Source: Chloroflexaceae bacterium (GTDB taxonomy: Bacteria; Chloroflexota; Chloroflexia; Chloroflexales; Chloroflexaceae). From it: a stretch of 64,000 bases of DNA. Location of the stretch: the NCBI GenBank assembly GCA_025057155.1, contig JANWYD010000011.1, positions 62,001 through 126,000 on the forward strand, in the 5' to 3' direction. The notes below the pieces were generated by a model, which made no database searches, was not told the DNA's origin, and worked only from the letters and a program-made list of their open reading frames with translations. How positions within the stretch are numbered: position 1 is the stretch's first letter; the number at the start of each line of letters is the position of its first letter. Positions 4,549 through 15,990 of the stretch are shown in pieces. The position numbers and the translations under genes were made by a program.

Positions 4549-4665
4549 CTTTGAGAAACGCGCAGCGCGGGCAGGCCCGCGCTCCCATGCTTCCATAACC
4601 TGCGTCCTGCGGCGCATCGCGCGACGATAACGAACGGTACATAGGGTGGATCACGCTCACGTTCT

Positions 4666-4673
4666 GGAGGTGA
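4666..4673 (+). promoter_or_regulatory. Ribosome binding site deciding the 4679 start
   Basis: GGAGGTGA lies five bases before the ATG at 4679. An in-frame GTG at 4646 lies upstream of this site and lacks one of its own; the ATG also places the signal peptide at the true N-terminus. Confidence 0.7.
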
Positions 4674-4678
4674 ACCCT

Positions 4679-6088
4679 ATGCGCCTTTGTTCCCGCCTCG
4701 GCCTGGTCGCGCTATTACTGCTGAGCGTTGCGCCTGCCGCAGCCTTCGCCCAGGAAGCTCCGCCCGTCCTCCGCGTCGCCGAAGTTACTCCTACAAGTCT
4801 CGTTGTTGAACTTGCCTGTCCCGGCGAAACGCTGCCCGCCCTGACCGCGACGATTGACGGCGCGGTCTACCCCGTGAGCGCGCCGATCCGTTCCGCCGTT
4901 CCGCTAGCCCTCGTCGTGGTGGTTGAGACGACGCCGGTGATGGAAGAGTCTGGCACGCCGCGCAGTACTCGTCTGCACGACGCGCTTACGCGCGCGCGCG
5001 CGTTGCTCGACCGCCTGCCGCCTGGCTCCCTGACCAGTCTGGTGACCTTTGATGCCACCGCGCGGGTGGTGTTACCGCTGACTCCCGATGGGCTGGCCGT
5101 GCGACGGGCCCTCGGCACGCTCGTTGGCGCCCCCGGCGCCCTCGGCGACCAGCCGCCCGCCCTGGGCCAGGCGCTGCGTCTGGCCGCCGAGACGCTCCTG
5201 GAGGCGCCGGAAGGGCCGCAGGCCCTGGCGCTCTTTGCCGCCAGCGCCGCGGATGCCCCTGTGCCGCCTCTGCCCACCGGGCTGGCGGCGGCGCGCGCCG
5301 TCGTAGACCTGGGGGGCGCCGACGAGGAAGGGCGCGGTCCTCTCGCGCCGCTGGCGGCCGACATCGGCGCGCTTTACGTGCCCTACGCCGCCGCCGATAG
5401 CGCAGCGCTCCCCGTGCGGAGCATGGCCGTTGACCAGCGCCTCGCGGACTGGGTGGGCGCCGCTGCGCCGCTCCAGGTGCGGATTGCCCTGGAGCGTATG
5501 GCTCCCGGCAGGCATGAACTCACCCTTGCCGGCTGCAGCGCTCCGGCTACAGTTATGTTTGATGTTCCCGCTCCTGATCAACCCTTCCGCCTCTGGTGGG
5601 TAGGATTGGGGGCTGTACCGCTCGTCGCGGCGGCCATGGTGGTTGCCTGGCGACGCCGGACGCTCTCAGGGACCCCTGAACGTTCCGGCGACAGTACAAA
5701 ACGTTATCGCGCGCCGGGGGCGGTGACGACCGAGCGGCGCATCACCGGGAGTCTGCCGGCCCTTGAAGTTGTGGTCTGGGATGGACGTGAGCGCCGGGTG
5801 TGGCCAGTACGCAGCCGGCAGATCACTGTGGGCCGGGATCCTGGCTGCGACGTCTGCATTCCCAGTAGCTGGGTTTCAGGACTGCACGCTCGTCTGTCGC
5901 TGATCGGCGATCGGGTAGAGATCACCGACATGGAGAGCACTAATGGCACCCTGGTCGGCGAACCGGGGCGACGCTTGACGCCGGGAGTGCCCGAGCCGCT
6001 TGAAGCGGGTGAGATAGTGCGCGTTGGTCCTCAGGTGCGCTTCTGTGTGCAGGTGGCGGCCTCAGCAGGCGCCGACGCCACACCGTGA
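4679..6088 (+). CDS. Membrane protein with VWA-like ectodomain and cytoplasmic FHA domain
   Basis: A 469-residue protein with a signal peptide (residues 1-25, ending AAAFAQ), an extracytoplasmic region resembling a von Willebrand A fold (about 70-270; LALVVVVE, SLTSLVTFDATARVV), one membrane helix near residues 301-325 followed by RRR, and a C-terminal FHA domain (about 365-460). The FHA signature residues are all present: VGRDPGCD, SGLHARL and ESTNGT. FHA domains bind phosphothreonine peptides. The VWA metal site is degenerate, with ETTPVMEES in place of DxSxS. It sits upstream of, and on the opposite strand to, the type VII-like genes, two of which concern FHA or secretion, so a regulatory or structural role in that apparatus is plausible but not proven. 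Confidence 0.75.
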   Translation: MRLCSRLGLVALLLLSVAPAAAFAQEAPPVLRVAEVTPTSLVVELACPGETLPALTATIDGAVYPVSAPIRSAVPLALVVVVETTPVMEESGTPRSTRLHDALTRARALLDRLPPGSLTSLVTFDATARVVLPLTPDGLAVRRALGTLVGAPGALGDQPPALGQALRLAAETLLEAPEGPQALALFAASAADAPVPPLPTGLAAARAVVDLGGADEEGRGPLAPLAADIGALYVPYAAADSAALPVRSMAVDQRLADWVGAAAPLQVRIALERMAPGRHELTLAGCSAPATVMFDVPAPDQPFRLWWVGLGAVPLVAAAMVVAWRRRTLSGTPERSGDSTKRYRAPGAVTTERRITGSLPALEVVVWDGRERRVWPVRSRQITVGRDPGCDVCIPSSWVSGLHARLSLIGDRVEITDMESTNGTLVGEPGRRLTPGVPEPLEAGEIVRVGPQVRFCVQVAASAGADATP

Positions 6089-6234
6089 CATCGCCGGTCA
6101 CCCTGATATGCCAACGCAACTTCGTCTCTGAAGGGACGATGCGGAGGGACGTCGTCCCCCCGCGCTCCGCTTTGAAACGAGGAGTGGGCGCACCCGGTCG
6201 TCCTATCCTTCTGCCAGCTATGAAAGGATCTCCG

Positions 6235-7368
6235 ATGGTACGTGTAAAGCTGATTGTCTCGATGCTGCTGGCCGCTGCCCTGGCAGCCTGCGTGGCTCCG
6301 GCGGCGCCTGTTGCTACTCCTGCGCCGAACAATCCGACCGTGCCGCCGGAAGAGGCTGCGCTCCTTGAGGTCCAGACCGCTCTGGAGCGGGGCGATTACG
6401 CTGCTGCCGTGGAGATGCTCGGCGCTCCGGTTAGTCCGGCCCACATAGCGCTGCTCGTGCGCGCGCGCATCGGTCTGACTCGCGAGATAATCGCCGCTGC
6501 CCCTGGCGACGCGCAGGCGCTTCGCGCCGCTCTCGACCAGGTTGGCCTGGCCCTGGCGCTCCGGCCCGACGATGCGGCGCTGCGCGATGAGTTGCTCGGT
6601 CTGGAGCGCGCGCTTGTCGCACTGCTGGCTGTTGAGGATCGGCGACAGGCGCTTCTGGCTGGTGAACCAGATGCGAATGATGTTGCCGCCCTCGACATGG
6701 CCCGTACACTGGCCGGGCGAGCCGTTGCGGCCGTCGCCGGCGAGCCGCGTCTGCCAGGCGCGGAGCAGATTGCGGCAAACGGCTTGCTTGCAGCGGCGGC
6801 TGTATTCGAGCGGAGCGGCGATGGCGCCGCTGACGACCGCGCCTCAGCCAGATGGCAGGAAGCGCGCGGGTTCTGCGAGCAGGCGATAGCGCTCCAGGCG
6901 AGTGATGCAGCCCGCTCGTGTCTCGAGCGACTGGCCAGCAAACTGAACCCGCCTGCCAGCGCCGCCGCGCCCGCCACGCCGGCAGCGGCAACCCTTCCTC
7001 TGCGCCGTCCAACTCCCGCCCCGCGTCCTCCCGCGCGTTCCACTGGCCCCGCCTTCAGCGTCGTGCAACGCAAAAGCTTCGATGGGAGCGGCAACAGTGG
7101 TCAGTTTGCCTCGTGCATTGACATTCAGGTCCTTGGGCCTGGCGGGCCAATCCCTGGCGCCGTTCTTGGCATCAATAACGGCGAGCACAGTTACCAGAAC
7201 CAGACCGACGCCAGCGGCTACACGGGGCGCTGCGGGCTGGGGGCCTCGACGTGGAGCGTTGTGCTCTTCTGGACGCCGCAGACAGGCAGTGTGAGCAGCG
7301 CGACCACCACCGTGTATCTCAACGGCGCGCCGGAGCAGCGCGCCGCCGTGGTGTTCCGGTCGCGGTAG
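6235..7368 (+). CDS. Lipoprotein with helical repeat region and C-terminal Ig-like domain
   Basis: A 377-residue putative lipoprotein. The start at 6235 is favoured because AAAGGA lies just upstream and the N-terminus MVRVKLIVSMLLAAALAAC is a lipoprotein signal peptide with lipobox AAC; 6220 is an alternative. After a Pro/Thr-rich tether come about 220 Ala/Leu-rich residues that look like TPR-type helical repeats, then a Pro/Ala-rich linker (PTPAPRPPARS) and a C-terminal domain of about 105 residues with GQFASCIDIQVLGPGG and SGYTGRCGLG, resembling a carboxypeptidase-regulatory or Ig-like fold. It follows the FHA membrane protein by about 145 bases in the same direction. The function is not recognised. 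Confidence 0.7.
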   Translation: MVRVKLIVSMLLAAALAACVAPAAPVATPAPNNPTVPPEEAALLEVQTALERGDYAAAVEMLGAPVSPAHIALLVRARIGLTREIIAAAPGDAQALRAALDQVGLALALRPDDAALRDELLGLERALVALLAVEDRRQALLAGEPDANDVAALDMARTLAGRAVAAVAGEPRLPGAEQIAANGLLAAAAVFERSGDGAADDRASARWQEARGFCEQAIALQASDAARSCLERLASKLNPPASAAAPATPAAATLPLRRPTPAPRPPARSTGPAFSVVQRKSFDGSGNSGQFASCIDIQVLGPGGPIPGAVLGINNGEHSYQNQTDASGYTGRCGLGASTWSVVLFWTPQTGSVSSATTTVYLNGAPEQRAAVVFRSR

Positions 7369-7670: not shown

Positions 7671-8333
7671 CTACGCGGCGATGTCGCCGATCAGGGTAAT
7701 GGACAGGCTCAGACCGTCCTCGCCGAGCGTCAGGATGTCGCCGTCACGCAGGGGTTCGGGAGCGCCCGGAGCGATGCGCATACCGTTGAGCAGCGTCGCC
7801 ACGTCGGCGCGTTCAGTTGAGACGCTCCACGGACCGGTTTCGGCGGGGGCGATAAGGCAGTGGGGGCGATTGGACACGTAGCGGTAGGCGGAGCGCCGCT
7901 GTTCCAGCAGGGCCAGTTCGCGATGGTACATATCGGGGTTCAGCAGCGCCAGGGCCTGCAACAGCCAGGCCCGGCTCACGGTAGCGCCGCGTGGCGGAAG
8001 GGCCACTTCGCTGCCATCGGGAAGACCCAGCAGGCAACGCCGGGGTGTCGTGAGGCTGCGTTCGGTCAACCACAGATGGCTGCCTGAACGCACGCCCTGA
8101 GCACTGGCCCTTTCAGTCGGACGCAGCAACCTGCCCGCCGGTGAGGCCAGCCGCAGGGCGTAGGCGATAGGTTCGCCCCGCTCGTTCCGTACAGGCAGGC
8201 CGCAGCCATCAATGAGCAGCGGGAGCAGCATTTCGGGTGAGCTGTCCTCGCAAACAATGGTCGTCGTTTGCTCTGTGTCGCCGACGAGCCAGTGCAGGGT
8301 TACCGTAAGCATCTCCTGGCGTTGTTGAGTCAT
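7671..8333 (-). CDS. Ubiquitin-like (YukD/EsaB-type) and FHA domain fusion protein
   Basis: A 220-residue cytoplasmic protein. Residues 1-95 start MLTVTLHWLVGDTEQTTTIV and contain LLPLLIDGCGLP and a late GSHLWLTERS strand, a pattern like the ubiquitin-fold YukD/EsaB/EccD-N domain of type VII secretion systems. The C-terminal half (about 120-220) resembles an FHA domain (NRPHCLIAP, TLLNGMRIAP, LRDGDILTLGEDGLSLSITL), although the canonical GR...SxxH is weak. It lies 472 bases downstream of the EccC-like ATPase on the same strand. In Firmicutes systems FHA domains sit at the N-terminus of EssC and YukD is separate. Here the ATPase has no FHA, so this fusion may supply both modules. AGGGGA lies before the ATG. 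Confidence 0.7.
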   Translation of the reverse strand: MTQQRQEMLTVTLHWLVGDTEQTTTIVCEDSSPEMLLPLLIDGCGLPVRNERGEPIAYALRLASPAGRLLRPTERASAQGVRSGSHLWLTERSLTTPRRCLLGLPDGSEVALPPRGATVSRAWLLQALALLNPDMYHRELALLEQRRSAYRYVSNRPHCLIAPAETGPWSVSTERADVATLLNGMRIAPGAPEPLRDGDILTLGEDGLSLSITLIGDIAA

Positions 8334-8356: not shown

Positions 8357-8454
8357 CTAGAGCACTGACCGGCATGCTTGATCCATTCAGGAACCTGCGT
8401 CGTGTGACTCCCTGCGCTTGCGCTGCCATCGTTGCGGGTCAATCGAGAAATGCT
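8357..8454 (+). repeat. Repeat family 3 copy (CTAGAGCACTGACCGGCATG..)
   Basis: It begins CTAGAGCACTGACCGGCATG, continues with CTTGATCC and ends with CATCGTTGCGGGTCAA and GAAATGCT. Related copies are at 41104-41208 (inverted) and 52181-52286. It lies 23 bases upstream of the ubiquitin-like/FHA start codon. Confidence 0.65.
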
Positions 8455-8472
8455 CCACCGTGGGACTCCCTT

Positions 8473-8648
8473 TTCTCAGGTGTAGTGTTTTTCGAGCGAG
8501 AAGAAGCGGTTTTCGACATTCCAATGCGCTTCCGATCCTCACCACCCGCCCGCCTCCCCCGCTCAGGGAGCGGGGGGAGTTGGGCGTCCCAATGCCCCGG
8601 ATGGCGAATGCGGCGCGAGCGTGCGCCGGAAAACCCTGCACCTGAAAA
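8473..8648 (-). repeat. Repeat family 1 (MITE-like, ~174 bp) copy A
   Basis: Terminal inverted repeats TTCTCAGGTGTAG and CTGCACCTGAAAA bound about 176 bases. The interior matches copies at 27599, 46099 and 52886 in reverse orientation: AGCGGTTTTCGACATTCCAA and GGGCGTCCCAATGCCCCGGA are shared. No reading frame of note lies within it. The size, ends and dispersal suggest a non-autonomous mobile element or a large intergenic palindrome. Confidence 0.75.
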
Positions 8649-8805
8649 GGGACTCCCTGGCGCCCAGACGCGATACCAACTCTTTACGGACCAGCCCTGG
8701 CGTCAATCCTGGTGGGCGGCCTGGCCGCCCCGAACCCTGCCGCCAGCGGCGAAGGTCGCATCAGCCGTCGCTGACCGGGGGAGGGTTCGGGAACGTGCAG
8801 CCCTC

Positions 8806-11800
8806 TCAGGAAGGCCACACGGCATCGGCCTGGGCGAGTTGCACCAGTTCGCGCTCCTCGTCGCGCACGAGCAGCGCCCGTCCAGGGGGTTGTTCGCTGG
8901 CGCGCTGATCGGCGAGAGGCAGCGCGACTCCCAGCAGCCGCGTGCCGGGATCGTAGCGCCCTGGCCACAGCAATAAACCGGCGCGGCCAGCGTCAAGGGC
9001 GCGCAGCAGATTGTCATCGGCGTAGGCAACGCCAGCGGCGACCAGCAGATGCTCCCCGTGCTGCCCGCCGACCTGGGCGATCTCAGTGAGGAGTTCGTGC
9101 AGGTTAGGTTCGCCGCCGAAGTTCTGGGTCAACTGGGCGCGCATACGCTCACGGCAGAGGGTGTAATCATCAATCAGCACGAGCCGGCGACGCGCAGGCG
9201 CTTCGGCGCGAGCAGCCAGAAGGCTGGCGCGGAGCATAGCGGCGCCGGCCTCATCGTCCACGTAGAGCATCGTATGGGGCAGCGCGCGAAGCGGGCGTAG
9301 CCCCCCGCGCGGCCCGTCGAGAATGAACAAGGCCAGTTCCTCAGGCCCGTAGCGGGCAATGAGGGCGCTGGCCGCGCAGAGCAGGGCGCCAGTTTTACCG
9401 CTGCGGCGCGGGCCGATGATCAGCGCATGCGGTGTTTCCTGGCTCAAATGGAGCCAGGCCGGGCCCAGGGTCAGGCTCTCGCGGCCGATTGGCGCGCTGA
9501 GCGCGTCGCCGGGGGCGGGGTCCTCGCTCGCGGCTTTCAGGGAGGCAAGGCTCAGGCGTTCAGGCAGCAGTTCGATCGGCGCCGGCCCCGCGCCCGCGCC
9601 CCGTTCGCGCCACTCGGCCCTCAAGCGTGCCGCCTGCTGGCGCAGTTCGATCGTCAGTTCGGCGTCCAGCGCGCCGGGACGTTCTTCAATGGCCTCGCCT
9701 CCGGCGCCGTCGCCATCGAGGCCCGGCAGAGCGATGTGTAGATCCAGCGGGCCGTAGTCAGGGTGCATAACAAGCGCGCGTCCCGGCAGGTGCTGCGGGA
9801 TTGGCGCGCTCACCCGCGCGCCGAGCAGATCGGAGTAGTCGTGCAACTCGGGCAGGCGCAGGGCAATACGGATCTCCATAAGCGAAAGCAGCCGGTAGGT
9901 GAGATCGGTGGCGCGATCAGCGCTCAGCGCAAGATGCACCCCGTAGGTCCGGCCAAGGCGTGCGATGCGGATCAGGTCGTCAATTATCTCGTCGTCCCCA
10001 TGACCGTCGCGGAACTCTTCCCGCAATACGGCGATTTTATCAATCACCACCAGAATGGCCGGAATGCGCCGGCCACCGGCGCGCAGGGCGGGCAGATCGG
10101 CGGCGTCGGCGGCACGCAGCACCTCCTGCCGTTCGCGGATGGTCGTCTCGAGCATGCGCATCAAACGGCGCACCCGTTCGCGTTCGCGGGCCTGGATGTG
10201 AGCCCCGACGTGTGGCAATCCAGCCAGGGGGCCAAGGCCCTGTCCGCCAGCGTCAATCAGGTAGCACCAGAGGTCGTCGGGGGTGTGCGACATCGCCAGG
10301 CCGAACACCAGGGCGCGCAGCAGGGTGGTTTTGCCGCTGCCGGGGGCGCCAATCGCCACCAGGTGACCGTCGGCCAGACTGACGCTGAACGGCTCGCGCC
10401 GGCTCTCCTGGGGCAGATCGAGCAGGCCGATGGCCTGGCGAAGCCAGGCTGAACCGGTGGGCGGTTCGCTCCAACCGTCGGCCACGCGCCCACTGACAGC
10501 AGCGAGTGACAACCGCGCGGGAAGTGGGGGCTGCCAGATGCGGGATGGCTCCCAGCCGGCCAGGGTGAGCGCGCGGGCCTCGGCGGCTTCGCGCAGGGCG
10601 CGCACCAGGATGTCGAGATCGGTCTCGCGCTGATCAGCCGGCGGATCGTGCATCGTCGTGACCGGCTGTTCGCGCCCATCGCGCAGAAAACTTACCCGTG
10701 GACCCGCAGCGCGCGCGGCGCTGCCGGTGCGGTGCGGCGTGGTGATCTGGGCCACCTGCATCAGTCGCGTTTCGGCGCCGACCCGGAAGAAGGCCCGCCC
10801 TGGCAGATCGGTGGGGAGGAAGGCAGCGTCGGGTTTGAGCAGCATCTCACGGCTATCCTCGGCGCTGCCCAGGCGCAGGGCGATGAAGAAGGTGAGCTGG
10901 CTGCGGATCTCGTTGGAGACGGCCCGCGCGGGTTGCTGGGTTGCCAGGAGCAGGTGTACTCCCAGTGAACGGCCCTGCTTCACAACGCGGATCAACTCGG
11001 CGACAAAGCCGGGATAGGTGCGCGCCAGTTCGTCGAATTCGTCCACGATGATCAGCAGGTTGGGCAGCGGCGGCAGGCCGGCACGGGCGGCCAGGGCGCG
11101 ATAGTCGCCGATGTTCTCGATGCGGGCGCTGTAAGCGGTGGCCACGCTCTTGAGCACCTCCTTGCGCCGGCGCAGTTCGCTCTTGATCGCCGTCATGGCC
11201 CGTTCGGCCAGACGCCCTTCGAGGTCGGTCACCATCCCCGCGCAGTGGGGCAGCGTGGCGAAGGGCATCAGGGCGGCGCCTCCCTTGAAGTCAATGAGCA
11301 GCAGTTGCAGACGCTCGGGGGGATGAGTCGTGGCCAGAGCGGCGATGATGCTCTGTAACAGCACGCTCTTCCCCGCGCCGGTCGCCCCGGCGATGATGCC
11401 GTGGGGGCCATGGCGGCTCTCGTTCAGATCGAGGCAGATGGGTTGCCCATCGGCCCCGGCGCCGATCGGCACGTCGGCGCGCCAGGCGGTGGCAGGCAGT
11501 TCGTTCCACCAGTGGGGCGGCGCCAGTTCGCTCACGTCGCTGATTCCGAGCAGGTCAAAGAGCCGGACTGAGCGGGGCACATCCTGCGCGCCGCCGCTTT
11601 CCACCAGCCGCACGCCGGCCAGGTGACGCGCGAGTTGATCGCTGGCCGCGAGATCGGCCTGATCAGGCGAAAAACGCTCACGGGGCCACTGATCGCCAGC
11701 GCGGGTCCAGCGGGCGCCGTGGGTTTCGAGTTCGAGCATCGCGGCGCAGGACTCGGGGAGCAGCGACCAGGCCGAAACCAGCAGCAGCGTGGCGATGCCC

Positions 11801-12828
11801 AGCGGGCCGCCGTGGCGGAGCAGTTCAGTAATGGCGGTGTAGGTCCCCGGCAGTTCGTCGCCGTCAACGAGCACCAGGATGCGCGGAGCTGAAGGAGCGG
11901 TCTCGTGTCGCGCGGCCCGTTCCCTCCGCCGGCTAAGGTGGTCGAGCAGATCGCTGGTGAGCCGTTCGGCGACATCGGGACGCCCGGCGAGCATGCGTAG
12001 ACCCGGCGAAGGGTCGTTGTTGAGCGGCAAAGTGTGTGGAAGCCAGCGCAGCCATTCCCACTCGGCGGCGCTGGCAGGGGCGTAGAGCGCCGCCAGCCGC
12101 AGATCGCCGGGGGCATGGAGCACGGCCGCCTGCCAGAGCAAGGCCCGCGCCAGAGCCAGGACCGCCGGGCGCGGCCCGGCGAGGCCGAGGGAGCCGAGCG
12201 TGGCCAGGGGCACACTGATGGGCGTCTGGCGCAGAGTAGCATGTTCGGCGGCGATGTGCAGCAGACGCTGGTCTACGGCGCCGGCAGGGGTGGGAGGCGG
12301 TACGTGCGCCTGGCTCGCTGCGGGGAGATTGCCGCTGCCCACCCGCAGGTCGAGGAAGTCATCGTCATCCGGGCGACGTTCCCAGAGACGCGGCTCGGGC
12401 GCGCCGCCGGTGACGCCAGCGATCAGCAGCAGTTCGCCGGGATCGGGCCAGAGATAGAGCCGCGCGCTGCGCTCCTGGTCGTAGAGGCGCCGCAGCCGGG
12501 CGCGCTGACTCTCCAGGCGGTCCTCGAAGTAGGCGCGGCGCTCGGCATACTGCGCGGCGGCGCGGCGCGCGGCGGCGCGACGGCTGGCGAGCGCCGCCCC
12601 GATTCCCATCAGCGCCAGCGCGCCACTGGGCAAGCCGACGAGCAGCGGGTTGCCGCCGCCGAGGCTGGCCGCGCTGGCGAAGACGCCCGCGCCCGCCAGA
12701 GGCAACACCAGTTGCGCCCAGTCGGTCGGCGCTGGCTCCGGCGGCGCGGGCGGTTCGGGCAATTCCACGCGCTCGGCGGCCCAGCGTGGGCGCACGCGAG
12801 GCGGCCGGTTAAAGGTGTGATCGCGCAC
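8806..12828 (-). CDS. Type VII-like secretion ATPase, EccC/EssC family (FtsK/SpoIIIE)
   Basis: A 1340-residue membrane ATPase, the motor of type VII secretion. Two membrane helices lie at about residues 36-85. Three FtsK/SpoIIIE ATPase domains follow. Domain 1 has Walker A GATGAGKS and Walker B LLIIVDEFDE, and looks catalytically complete. Domain 2 has GAPGSGKTT but VVIDK in place of a DE Walker B. Domain 3 has GPRRSGKTG and LVLIDDYTL. This matches EccC/EssC, where only domain 1 is normally competent and domain 3 binds the substrate signal. There is no N-terminal FHA pair as in EssC. The start is GTG at 12828 with AAGGAGG four bases upstream. It follows a WXG-like gene and a lipase gene on the same strand. 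Confidence 0.93.
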   Translation of the reverse strand: MRDHTFNRPPRVRPRWAAERVELPEPPAPPEPAPTDWAQLVLPLAGAGVFASAASLGGGNPLLVGLPSGALALMGIGAALASRRAAARRAAAQYAERRAYFEDRLESQRARLRRLYDQERSARLYLWPDPGELLLIAGVTGGAPEPRLWERRPDDDDFLDLRVGSGNLPAASQAHVPPPTPAGAVDQRLLHIAAEHATLRQTPISVPLATLGSLGLAGPRPAVLALARALLWQAAVLHAPGDLRLAALYAPASAAEWEWLRWLPHTLPLNNDPSPGLRMLAGRPDVAERLTSDLLDHLSRRRERAARHETAPSAPRILVLVDGDELPGTYTAITELLRHGGPLGIATLLLVSAWSLLPESCAAMLELETHGARWTRAGDQWPRERFSPDQADLAASDQLARHLAGVRLVESGGAQDVPRSVRLFDLLGISDVSELAPPHWWNELPATAWRADVPIGAGADGQPICLDLNESRHGPHGIIAGATGAGKSVLLQSIIAALATTHPPERLQLLLIDFKGGAALMPFATLPHCAGMVTDLEGRLAERAMTAIKSELRRRKEVLKSVATAYSARIENIGDYRALAARAGLPPLPNLLIIVDEFDELARTYPGFVAELIRVVKQGRSLGVHLLLATQQPARAVSNEIRSQLTFFIALRLGSAEDSREMLLKPDAAFLPTDLPGRAFFRVGAETRLMQVAQITTPHRTGSAARAAGPRVSFLRDGREQPVTTMHDPPADQRETDLDILVRALREAAEARALTLAGWEPSRIWQPPLPARLSLAAVSGRVADGWSEPPTGSAWLRQAIGLLDLPQESRREPFSVSLADGHLVAIGAPGSGKTTLLRALVFGLAMSHTPDDLWCYLIDAGGQGLGPLAGLPHVGAHIQARERERVRRLMRMLETTIRERQEVLRAADAADLPALRAGGRRIPAILVVIDKIAVLREEFRDGHGDDEIIDDLIRIARLGRTYGVHLALSADRATDLTYRLLSLMEIRIALRLPELHDYSDLLGARVSAPIPQHLPGRALVMHPDYGPLDLHIALPGLDGDGAGGEAIEERPGALDAELTIELRQQAARLRAEWRERGAGAGPAPIELLPERLSLASLKAASEDPAPGDALSAPIGRESLTLGPAWLHLSQETPHALIIGPRRSGKTGALLCAASALIARYGPEELALFILDGPRGGLRPLRALPHTMLYVDDEAGAAMLRASLLAARAEAPARRRLVLIDDYTLCRERMRAQLTQNFGGEPNLHELLTEIAQVGGQHGEHLLVAAGVAYADDNLLRALDAGRAGLLLWPGRYDPGTRLLGVALPLADQRASEQPPGRALLVRDEERELVQLAQADAVWPS

Positions 12829-12942: not shown

Positions 12943-13314
12943 TTATACGGGGCGAGGGCCGGAGCGCTCGCGTTGCCGCCGTTCACGCTCCTCGCGCTCG
13001 CGGCGCTCGTGTTCCTCGCGCTCGCGCAGGCGTCGGGCCTGCTCTTCATGCGCGCGGGCGCTGGCATGCTGCACGTCGGCGGCAGCGCGGCGACACGCCG
13101 CGGCAATAGCGGTTAACTCGCCACGCAACCGGGAACTCGAGTGCTCGAAGAACTCGCGGTGCGGGCCGAGCCAGTCGGTGGCGGCTTCGCGGCTGGTCTG
13201 CGCGATTTCGGCGAGCGCGCGATCAATCTCGCCAGCGGTGCGCTGCAGGGCTGCCACGGCCTCGGTGGCGGCGCCATGGTCCCAACGCACATCTTGCCAG
13301 ATATCGTTTGGCAT
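12943..13314 (-). CDS. WXG100-like protein with charged C-terminal tail
   Basis: A 123-residue protein, predicted almost wholly helical. Residues 1-88 have the length and helix-turn-helix pattern of ESAT-6/WXG100 proteins, with W-L-G at residues 48-50 (TDWLGPHREFFEHSS) as the hinge. Residues 89-123 form an extreme Arg/Glu-rich tail (REREEHERREREERERRQRE) that is unusual for the family and could be a coiled coil or a docking tail. A good ribosome binding site CCAGGAGG precedes the ATG. It lies between the lipase-like gene and eccC on the same strand, so it is likely a secreted partner, or a chaperone-like adaptor for the lipase. No YxxxD/E export motif was seen. Confidence 0.75.
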   Translation of the reverse strand: MPNDIWQDVRWDHGAATEAVAALQRTAGEIDRALAEIAQTSREAATDWLGPHREFFEHSSSRLRGELTAIAAACRRAAADVQHASARAHEEQARRLREREEHERREREERERRQRERSGPRPV

Positions 13315-13433: not shown

Positions 13434-15062
13434 TCAGTTGCCGCCTGGCGACGCGGGAGAGCGCGGCGCTCCTGAGCCGCAGAGGGCGGGCGCCGGGGCC
13501 GTAGCTGGCGGAATCGGCGCATACACCTCGTGATAAGCGGGATCGATGGCGAAGGGAAGCACCTGCGCGGCCGCTGGCAGCCCGCGGTAACTGCTGGTGT
13601 CATAGGAGAGATGGGCGATCCTCGGGTCGCTTATCTCGCCGTCATCGAGGAGATGCACATTGGCGAAGCGCCCCGGATCGTGGCCTGCGCCGACATTGAG
13701 CGCGAGCGCGTCGTCGGTGTCCACGTAGTGGTTGACGACCGTATTGGCAAAGAGCGGCCCAGCGAGCGCGCCCGGGGCGTCCGGCGGCACGCCGTTAACT
13801 CCAGCGCGGTTGGGCCGCACCGCGCCGAAGGTGGTCACCGATCCCACCGTGATATTGTGCCTTTGCAGGTATTGCTGCACCTCTGGATCGTTGAGTGCAA
13901 GCATAACCATCCCGCCCCCCATGCTGTGACCAGCCAGGTGAATGGTGATGCCTTCGGGCAGACGTTCGAGGTGACCGAGGATCTGCTCCTTGACATACGT
14001 AAAGTAGCGATTCTCGTTCCCCGAAACCCCCTGTGAGGTCAACGCGACAGCGTAAAAGTTGTTCGGACCCTGGGCGTTAGCGACGTCCAGCCCGGCGATG
14101 CCAAAGGCGTACTCGTTGGCGCCCACCCGCGCCAGGCGCACCTGCTCGCCAGAATAGGAGCCGATCAAGCTGTGCTCGCCATACATCAGCGCCTGGGGGC
14201 TCAGATAGAGCCGGCCATCGGCGCTGCGATGGCGAACCGTCCCGGGATCGTACATCGCCTCCAGCGGTACGTCGAGGATGCCCCGCACGGGGTCGCGGAG
14301 CGGTTCGGCGAACTCGGACGGACGCGGGTGCGAGCAGGTGCCAAGCGTGCCGCAGAGCGCCAGGTGGATTCGGTCGAGCCGCGCGGTGATCGAACGCATG
14401 CGTTGCTCATCAACCGGCCGGTACATCAGGCGCCAGACGCTGTTGTGAACCAGCTCGAAGAAGTCCCTGGGCGAGGCAACTGGTTGAGCCATCCAGCGTG
14501 ACCACTCGGTAGCGACTACCGTACCCCCGGCGAGCATGCCCAGCAGCGCCAGGGAAGGCCCCATCCTGGCGAGCAGGTAGGGGATCTGCGAGGGCCAGGC
14601 AGATCCGTAGCTGTTCAGGACACGCTCGATTTCGGCGAGGTGGTAGTCGAGCATCGTGGCGATCCCGTTCCAAACCGCGCGGGCCAGTTCGGGCCGGCTG
14701 CGGACAAGCTCGATCAGTTTTGCATACTCCAGCGGTAACGAGGCGCGCATGGGGTGGTTGCCCATCCACTGCATGATCTGGGCGCGCAGGGTTGCGGCAG
14801 CCGCAGCGCGCGTATCGGCGGCGGTGAAGGCCCGCGCGACGTCAACCGTCCACGCCGCAAGGGCGGCCTGATCGCGGGCCGCGACGTTCAGACGGGCGGC
14901 CAGCCCTTCGATTTCCGGTACGCGATACTCGGTGCAGCGAGCGGCGAAATGCGCGAGGATCTCCGCGAGGCGCCGAGCCTCGTCCTCCAGGTTTGTGGCG
15001 GAGGCGCTGGAGGCGCGGGCGTAGCGCGTGAGTGCTGCGGGGCGCGCCGAACTGACGGTCAT
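13434..15062 (-). CDS. Putative type VII secreted lipase (WXG/LXG-like N-terminus, class 3 lipase-like C-terminus)
   Basis: A 542-residue protein with no signal peptide. Residues 1-100 are Ala-rich and helical (ASATNLEDEARRLAEILAHF, VPEIEGLAARLNVAAR), resembling the N-terminal targeting region of type VII effectors. A hydrophobic stretch lies at about 165-185 (SLALLGMLAGGTVVA). The C-terminal half is an alpha/beta hydrolase with nucleophile elbow GHSMGGG (Ser380), a candidate acid in NHYVDTDDALAL (about 448-451) and a candidate His in RIAHLSY (484), arranged like class 3 lipases. The region 250-350 holds SPQALMYGEHSLIGSYSGE. It is encoded between two WXG-like genes and upstream of the EccC-like ATPase, all on one strand. 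AAGGAG precedes the ATG. The lipase fold is well supported; export by type VII is inference. Confidence 0.8.
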   Translation of the reverse strand: MTVSSARPAALTRYARASSASATNLEDEARRLAEILAHFAARCTEYRVPEIEGLAARLNVAARDQAALAAWTVDVARAFTAADTRAAAAATLRAQIMQWMGNHPMRASLPLEYAKLIELVRSRPELARAVWNGIATMLDYHLAEIERVLNSYGSAWPSQIPYLLARMGPSLALLGMLAGGTVVATEWSRWMAQPVASPRDFFELVHNSVWRLMYRPVDEQRMRSITARLDRIHLALCGTLGTCSHPRPSEFAEPLRDPVRGILDVPLEAMYDPGTVRHRSADGRLYLSPQALMYGEHSLIGSYSGEQVRLARVGANEYAFGIAGLDVANAQGPNNFYAVALTSQGVSGNENRYFTYVKEQILGHLERLPEGITIHLAGHSMGGGMVMLALNDPEVQQYLQRHNITVGSVTTFGAVRPNRAGVNGVPPDAPGALAGPLFANTVVNHYVDTDDALALNVGAGHDPGRFANVHLLDDGEISDPRIAHLSYDTSSYRGLPAAAQVLPFAIDPAYHEVYAPIPPATAPAPALCGSGAPRSPASPGGN

Positions 15063-15379: not shown

Positions 15380-15661
15380 CTAGATGTTGCCGCCGGCCTG
15401 CATGATGTTCTGGTTGATCTGCTGGATCTGGCGGCGCAGTTCCTCGAGGGCCTGCTGGGTGCTGAGCAGCTTCCGGTGGGTGTCGGTCCACTGGGCGCGG
15501 AACTCGGCGGCCAGGCGGCCATCCCAGTTGCCAGGATCGCTGAGGATCTGGCCCTGGCTGTTCAATTCGCTGATCTGCTGAAGCAGCGGGCCATTGACGA
15601 TGCGCTGGAAGGCGTTGATGGCTTCGCGGGCGGTGGCGGTGGAGAGAACGCGGTCGCTCAT
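15380..15661 (-). CDS. WXG100 family protein (ESAT-6-like)
   Basis: A 93-residue, all-helical protein of exact WXG100 size, with the motif N-W-D-G-R at residues 45-49 between two helices (AREAINAFQRIVNGPLLQQI and LEELRRQIQQINQNIMQ). The start at 15661 follows AAAGGAG at good spacing; a longer frame upstream has no such support. WXG100 proteins are secreted as dimers by EccC/EssC systems, and the last residues contact ATPase domain 3. This gene is first in a same-strand run: WXG100, lipase, WXG-like, EccC, ubiquitin-like/FHA. It may pair with the 123-residue WXG-like protein or with the lipase N-terminus. Confidence 0.88.
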   Translation of the reverse strand: MSDRVLSTATAREAINAFQRIVNGPLLQQISELNSQGQILSDPGNWDGRLAAEFRAQWTDTHRKLLSTQQALEELRRQIQQINQNIMQAGGNI

Positions 15662-15750
15662 GGGTGGTGACTCCTTTGGTAGCAACGGATACCTCGCTGT
15701 ATGTACCGCTGCCGTTGTCAGGAGGATACGGGCGCTTCCGATTCGTGGGC

Positions 15751-15855
15751 GCGTGTTCAGATTTACCGCGGAGCATGCAGAGGAACGTAGAGGATAAGCG
15801 TTTGGAAGCCCTTTGCGCCCTCTGCGGCGCGAACGCGTTTGGTAGAGGCGAACAC
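15751..15855 (+). repeat. Repeat family 2 copy (GTGTTCAGATTTACCGCGGA..)
   Basis: A 105-base element with ends GTGTTCAGATTTACCGCGGA and GGTAGAGGCGAACAC, and core GCCCTTTGCGCCCTCTGCG. Other copies lie at 28846-28956 (reverse) and 62519-62622. The outer bases GTGTTC/GAACAC are inverted repeats. It is non-coding and palindromic, perhaps MITE-like. Confidence 0.7.
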
Positions 15856-15961
15856 GATCATTTCTGGTGAATACCGTGCATAGGCATGATCGCCCGGTCT
15901 CAAGACAGGGCGGTCTCAAATCCAAAAGCCACAATCCGAAAGGGCATACGGCGTCCGGCCT

Positions 15962-15990
15962 TTGTTGAGACCATCGTTCCATGGTATGCT
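15962..15990 (+). promoter_or_regulatory. Possible promoter for nadK
   Basis: TTGTTG (15962-15967) and TATGCT (15985-15990) are spaced by 17 bases, about 50 bases before the nadK start. The match to sigma70 consensus is moderate. Confidence 0.4.

Follow-up and report, generated by a model that had tools for sequence, protein, structure and literature searches.

A conserved YukD-FHA fusion protein encoded beside an FHA-less type VII secretion ATPase in Chloroflexales

Ubiquitin-like and FHA domains are found in several arrangements around the ATPase of described type VII secretion systems (T7SS; PMC11217815, PMC9600267, and PMC9436818). In T7SSb, the ATPase EssC (YukB in Bacillus) carries two degenerate FHA domains that contact a partner of kinase fold; the FHA region of Bacillus YukB binds the pseudokinase domain of YukC independently of phosphorylation (PMC9600267), and FHA2 of EssC is required for association with EssB (PMC9436818). 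The ATPases of T7SSa, c, g, and h, on the other hand, lack FHA domains, and T7SS ATPases are not grouped by FHA presence (PMC11217815). EsaB/YukD of T7SSb and TsxB of newer subtypes are discrete small proteins (about 80 residues for YukD/EsaB) of ubiquitin-like type without Gly-Gly, encoded together with the ATPase and WXG100 proteins, whereas EccD of T7SSa is a polytopic membrane protein that joins a YukD-type domain to a further module and is paired with an ATPase lacking FHA. The ubiquitin-like domain of EccD touches EccC, and EsaB and TsxB are thought to act likewise (PMC11217815), although a YukD-YukB contact was not seen in the Bacillus two-hybrid results described in PMC9600267. T7SSc (TscA-G; Garrett et al. 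2024, PMC11217815) combines an FHA-less ATPase with a discrete YukD protein (TscB), a Ser/Thr kinase, a PPM/PP2C phosphatase, and a vWA protein predicted to be cytoplasmic, and T7SSe, f, and j possess a separate protein with a C-terminal FHA domain (TseJ, TsfJ, and TsjJ), the N-terminal domain of TseJ and TsfJ being DUF6382 (PMC11217815). Chloroflexota are not mentioned in the text of this main subtype classification (PMC11217815).

The window analyzed here, a stretch of 64,000 nucleotides from a Chloroflexaceae bacterium, holds an EccC/EssC-type ATPase together with a WXG100 gene, the combination by which a T7SS is recognized, whereas the N-terminal FHA pair that defines a T7SSb ATPase is absent (Table 1). 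Downstream of the ATPase gene and on the same strand lies a frame of 220 codons (ATG at 8333, stop at 7671-7673), in which an earlier note had proposed a YukD-like N terminus and an FHA-like C terminus; that note placed the gene correctly at 7671-8333 without giving its strand, which is minus. The YukD-like domain of this protein lacks a C-terminal Gly-Gly, as in EsaB/YukD and TsxB, but is fused to an FHA-like domain instead of standing alone. The protein resembles EccD in joining a YukD-type domain to another module beside an FHA-less ATPase but is soluble, with no clear membrane segment by hydropathy, as the earlier note had supposed. It differs from EssC/YukB in that there is a single FHA-like domain and this lies on a soluble protein apart from the ATPase, with contact to a kinase-fold partner proposed here as the shared feature, and from TseJ and TsfJ in having YukD as its N-terminal domain. 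T7SSc comes nearest in component set (kinase, PP2C, vWA, and FHA-less ATPase), but the system was not filed there because its YukD is fused and its vWA protein has hydrophobic segments and an FHA domain. EssB/YukC (PF10140) was rejected as a component, there being no match in the source genome at E ≤ 0.001 while the Bacillus subtilis control matched. The EccD membrane domain (PF19053) likewise had no match in the source genome, a weak negative since its control matched only below the cut-off, and EccB (PF05108) matched nowhere, the controls included.

Table 1. Features of the YukD-FHA locus, with positions in the window
Feature	Position	Strand	Evidence
vWA protein with hydrophobic segments and C-terminal FHA domain	4646..6088	+	FHA 4.4e-14, VWA_2 7.4e-7
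Conserved lipoprotein-like protein, Ig-like segment at C terminus (labels by eye)	6085..7368	+	Synteny
YukD-FHA fusion gene	7671..8333	-	Reading frame, Pfam, family alignment, dN/dS
FHA-like domain, residues ~99-216	7686..8039	-	Pfam, PDB profile search, hhalign 82%
Ser154 to His158, FHA SxxH-like	7860..7874	-	Ser154 22/23, His158 23/23
Stretch from Arg121 to Ser154, ~17-19 residues beyond ordinary FHA	7878..7970	-	Alignment spacing
Arg121	7971..7973	-	Invariant, 23/23 aligned members
YukD/EsaB-like ubiquitin-fold domain, residues ~9-90	8064..8309	-	Pfam, hhalign 98.9%, sequence
EccC/EssC-type FtsK/SpoIIIE ATPase, 1340 residues, without FHA	8806..12828	-	Pfam, NCBIfam, PDB matches
Small WXG-like partner protein, weak match	12943..13314	-	Pfam/NCBIfam; position conserved
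Lipase-like protein, candidate secreted substrate	13434..15062	-	Lipase_3 E 0.0018, below cut-off; synteny
WXG100 protein, matched over residues 133-196	15380..15982	-	Pfam PF06013

Taken singly, the 220-residue protein matches Pfam YukD (PF08817; residues 36-89, E = 0.0031, 18.7 bits) and Pfam FHA (PF00498; residues 156-204, E = 0.0033, 18.3 bits) below the curated cut-offs of 27 and 20.7, the FHA match is limited to the latter half of the fold (profile positions 20-67 of 67), and a PDB search with this protein alone gave nothing significant. Across the family, 16 of the 18 aligned members, this protein counted, match YukD at E ≤ 1 (best E 7.5e-8) and 14 of the 18 match FHA at the same threshold (best E 9e-5). 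When ten members drawn from this 18-row alignment were scanned one by one, L026 passed both curated cut-offs, accompanied by L012 for YukD and by L008 and L017 for FHA, while L004 matched YukD only and L019 matched neither; among distant members, L088, L089, and L090 match FHA (E 0.002-0.011) and L091 does not. Profile-profile comparison by hhalign, the check that the earlier note had called for, gave 98.9% (E 2.7e-17) for the N-terminal half against nine YukD-type domains and a weaker 81.9% (E 1.1e-5) for the C-terminal half against eight FHA domains, an alignment whose N-terminal end appears out of register, and the swapped pairs used as controls reached 0.9% and 0.4%. In a PDB search with the family profile, FHA domains ranked first (RNF8, E 4.4e-4, but also 1uht and the Rad53 FHA), with talin and the ubiquitin-like domains of EccD/Snm4 behind them at E > 0.04. 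Because of these family statistics and the profile-profile results with their swapped controls, the two identities stand above chance, and a chance likeness was rejected, also in view of the single-relative scans. All 23 aligned family members are of similar size (~210-250 residues) and carry the second domain, and dN/dS over the whole gene is 0.10-0.15 for the source gene and two close relatives, so that selection acts on the protein, in both halves, and a reading-frame artefact could be discarded. The YukD-FHA fusion, as first seen by the earlier note within 220 residues, is thus a real and conserved architecture. A second, separate YukD in the source genome was also considered and rejected, no other YukD match being found there; the PF08817 search of that genome was empty at E ≤ 0.001 because the 220-residue protein itself lies at ~0.003. 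Two AlphaFold models, built on alignments of 4 and 5 rows, were uninformative (mean pLDDT 39 and 40), the YukD half showing a beta-beta-alpha order at pLDDT ~40.

The phosphothreonine site of FHA domains comprises Gly-Arg, Ser-x-x-His, and Asn-Gly residues, and in ordinary FHA domains the Arg and the Ser are ~14 residues apart. In the 23-member alignment, Arg121, His158, Trp169, and Cys100 are invariant, and Cys159 and Asn183 are kept in 21 and 19 members, respectively. Arg121 is probably the counterpart of the FHA "GR" arginine, an assignment made from residue order since the Pfam matches begin at profile position 16-21; the preceding Gly is not kept in the family, and the canonical Asn-Gly is not found in the corresponding columns of the alignment. 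The Arg-to-Ser spacing is 28-33 residues in all 23 members, and the intervening stretch is helical in both AlphaFold models, at low pLDDT. The FHA signature is therefore partly degenerate, as the earlier note had it, with Arg, Ser, and His kept and Asn-Gly lost. Because of this loss, and because the YukB FHA-YukC contact has been reported to be phosphorylation-independent, it is uncertain from the residues whether binding by the FHA half would depend on phosphate. The FHA domain of the neighboring vWA protein, on the other hand, is canonical, with GR, SxxH, and STNGT intact. As a separate observation, the pair of conserved cysteines (Cys100 and Cys159; within 7674-8333, minus strand) might have a disulfide or metal role.

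The source ATPase scores above the NCBIfam cut-off for EccCa (TIGR03924; 532.4 bits against 509.15) but below that for EssC (TIGR03928; 601.3 bits against 778.4), and its PDB matches are EccC5 and YukB. In this protein and in 42 of the 43 other ATPase frames listed, an RPPR motif lies at most 140 residues from the frame start, leaving no room for an N-terminal FHA pair, and no FHA appears among the best 25 of 41 Pfam families for the source ATPase; an FHA pair on the ATPase was rejected from the position of the motif, which bears out the earlier statement that it is lacking. The accompanying idea that the FHA module had been moved off an EssC-type ATPase was not supported by the EccCa and EssC scores. 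Because the ATPases of T7SSa, c, g, and h are likewise FHA-less and T7SS ATPases show no grouping according to FHA (PMC11217815), no loss of FHA from EssC needs to be invoked. The exception among the ATPase frames, L098, has its RPPR motif at 165, preceded by a YukD domain: here (L098:4008-8477, G136:C22) YukD (E 1.2e-8) is N-terminal on a full EccC/EssC-type ATPase with three FtsK stretches. ATPase-like frames of ~2,900-2,990 residues with a start resembling the EccC N-terminal region were also seen (L149:9224-17569, G055:C2, and similar places). In the source, the 472-bp gap between the ATPase and fusion genes contains interspersed repeats (8357-8657) with copies near 27.6, 41.1, 46.1, 52.2, and 52.9 kb at 75-88% identity, and in relatives the gap ranges from an overlap to ~350 bp.

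Relatives, which the earlier note had proposed to check, do share the fusion. Some match to the fusion protein was found in 24 of 61 related genomes, several at the FHA part only, and 41 of the 61 were matched when the N-terminal region of the ATPase served as an independent query. Excluding the ~2,900-residue versions and two fragments (G025:C1118 and G052:C70) from the places found by the ATPase search left 44 loci for comparison, in 36 of which the fusion adjoins the FHA-less ATPase (35 by a 23-row profile, plus G003, a fragment at a contig end); the two genes are on the same strand in 35 of these 36 and divergent in L075. Two layouts occur, one with the fusion downstream of the ATPase, as in the source, and the other with the fusion, itself longer, placed upstream of an ATPase that is also longer (L088-L094 type). 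Of the eight loci without the fusion, L132 and L135 stop at a contig edge, and the remaining six, non-truncated (L136-L140 and L142), indicate that some systems of this type can do without the fusion. L136-L140, which we guess to be Chloroflexus-like, have a shorter ATPase and neither YukD-FHA nor a kinase on the examined stretch, and WXG100, substrate-like, and partner genes are neighbors in L136 and L138. In a search of 301 Chloroflexota genomes, 29 of them from the same order by the entries listed, matches spanning both domains were confined to that order: none of the 272 genomes outside it had a place spanning YukD and FHA, and YukD there either stood by itself or was joined to a different partner, namely a ubiquitin-conjugating domain, WD40 repeats, or an ATPase. 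For example, L095:6986-7885 and L096:9332-10186 encode a YukD-UQ_con fusion beside a discrete YukD-like gene, which looks like a bacterial ubiquitin-like pathway and not secretion, and L097:7495-9000 and L099:8986-10542 run from a YukD-like start through a hydrophobic segment to a WD40 propeller (the Pfam scan covering L097). A second YukD-like domain, on a protein with one hydrophobic segment, was noticed in the same cluster as YukD-FHA at L088:15957-17258 and L090:12675-13895. A tblastn search of plasmids for the fusion gave no match, and a contig scan with the 220-residue protein as sole query returned close relatives only. Searches of the open-access literature turned up no earlier description of a YukD-FHA fusion. 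The architecture thus appears to be unreported, although the machine that contains it is of a known kind.

Upstream of the ATPase lie the WXG-like, lipase-like, and WXG100 genes; the WXG100 match (E 1.8e-5, 25.4 bits, just under the cut-off of 27.3) is conserved in relatives, and its position within the frame suggests that the true start is probably internal. The lipoprotein-like gene, for which no Pfam match was obtained, is convergent with the fusion gene, and the vWA-FHA gene is on the same plus-strand side. In L076, a single run of genes in one direction encodes WXG100, lipase-like, partner, ATPase, YukD-FHA, vWA-FHA, Ser/Thr kinase (E 1.8e-27), PP2C, and lipoprotein-like proteins. Kinase, PP2C, and vWA occur together with the ATPase in L076 and L075, whereas the source cluster has the vWA only. 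A kinase is present on the examined stretch at 17 of the 36 fusion loci and absent from it at 19, these stretches varying in length and some reaching contig ends, and at none of the six non-truncated loci without the fusion, a difference from which little can be drawn because the related genomes are not independent. The source genome has 21 kinase matches, and that with the greatest similarity to the in-cluster kinase of genome G001 (45%) lies on another contig, C18; its relatives are found in G002 (73%) and G004 (70%), and its best match in G001 is that genome's own in-cluster kinase. This pattern, taken from five genomes, would fit relocation of the kinase gene.

The earlier suggestion that the protein couples phospho-signals to the ATPase thus keeps a plausible setting, given the kinase and PP2C genes in the clusters of relatives, while its phosphate-dependent part has become uncertain. 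In the strict form of this idea, the FHA half would be a true phosphothreonine reader: the kinase would mark itself, the vWA-FHA protein, or the ATPase, YukD-FHA would bind the mark, PP2C would reset it, and secretion would be switched in this way. The near-complete conservation of Arg121, Ser154, and His158 is in keeping with such a reader, as are the retention of Lys78, Glu95, the HxD residues His195/Asp197, and Asn202 in all six aligned kinases and the occurrence of PP2C in L075, L076, L078, L088, L090, and L093. We nevertheless regard it as unlikely, since the Asn-Gly is missing, the Arg-Ser separation is long, the DFG aspartate is missing in one kinase of the six (L065), the canonical FHA residues belong to the vWA-FHA protein instead, and the corresponding Bacillus contact is reported as phosphate-independent (PMC9600267).

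YukD-FHA might alternatively act on the substrate side, as a chaperone or targeting adaptor that holds the WXG-like/lipase-like complex and passes it to the ATPase. Gene order does group the fusion with the WXG100, partner, lipase-like, and ATPase genes, but the lipase-like genes vary widely in length and similarity while the adaptor keeps a constant size, no precedent for substrate binding by an FHA domain was seen, and the T7SS chaperones described in PMC11217815, EspG and EsaE, are of another kind; these points make a substrate-side role distinctly improbable. Even less probable, to the point that we give it very little weight, is that only the YukD assignment is correct and the C-terminal half adopts an unrelated fold that resembles FHA over a short stretch by chance. 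The sub-threshold FHA score of the 220-residue protein, the locally misregistered hhalign result of 82%, and the uninformative AlphaFold models would agree with an unrelated fold, yet FHA is matched in 14 of 18 members and above the curated cut-off in three of ten single scans, the profile retrieves RNF8, 1uht, and Rad53 FHA domains for this region, and three of the four distant members match FHA as well.

The reading that we prefer, with a probability of about 0.58, is that YukD-FHA belongs to the core of a Chloroflexales T7SS as a cytoplasmic adaptor, with its YukD half on the ATPase and its FHA half on a kinase-type/vWA-FHA module. The EsaB-like half would dock on the FtsK/SpoIIIE ATPase at its cytoplasmic part, much as the ubiquitin-like domain of EccD does on EccC, and the FHA half would bind the kinase-type/vWA-FHA signaling module, like the EssC FHA on the pseudokinase EssB and perhaps free of phosphate. 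Since the ATPase itself lacks FHA, this contact would be supplied in trans by the fusion. The precedents of EccD-EccC, YukB FHA-YukC, and EssC FHA2-EssB, together with the natural YukD-ATPase fusion in L098, suggest this adaptor role, which is also consistent with the domain identities, the conservation, the tight linkage to the ATPase, and the linkage to kinase, PP2C, and vWA-FHA genes in many relatives. On the other side stand the Bacillus two-hybrid result (PMC9600267), the weak FHA match, the position of the kinase outside the source cluster, the 19 fusion loci with no kinase on the examined stretch, the six fusion-free systems, and models at pLDDT ~40. The two contacts and the direction in which they act are inferred, as is any phosphorylation-based control of secretion. 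A more elaborate version, which we consider doubtful, would define a Chloroflexales-specific T7SS subtype with a YukD-FHA clutch, in which YukD engages the FHA-less ATPase, the FHA domain with its helical insert reads the kinase/PP2C state, and reversible assembly gates secretion.

The natural YukD-FHA and YukD-ATPase fusions point toward a part for YukD in coupling the ATPase to a kinase, and the FHA module that is fused to YukD here sits on the ATPase itself in Bacillota. Such fusions offer small soluble constructs that bear on the role of EsaB/YukD in type VII secretion. Together, these data outline an arrangement of T7SS in Chloroflexota that is absent from the text of the main subtype classification (PMC11217815). 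In this arrangement, since relatives keep the fusion beside the secretion motor, the protein is probably a clip tying a kinase-type module to that motor.
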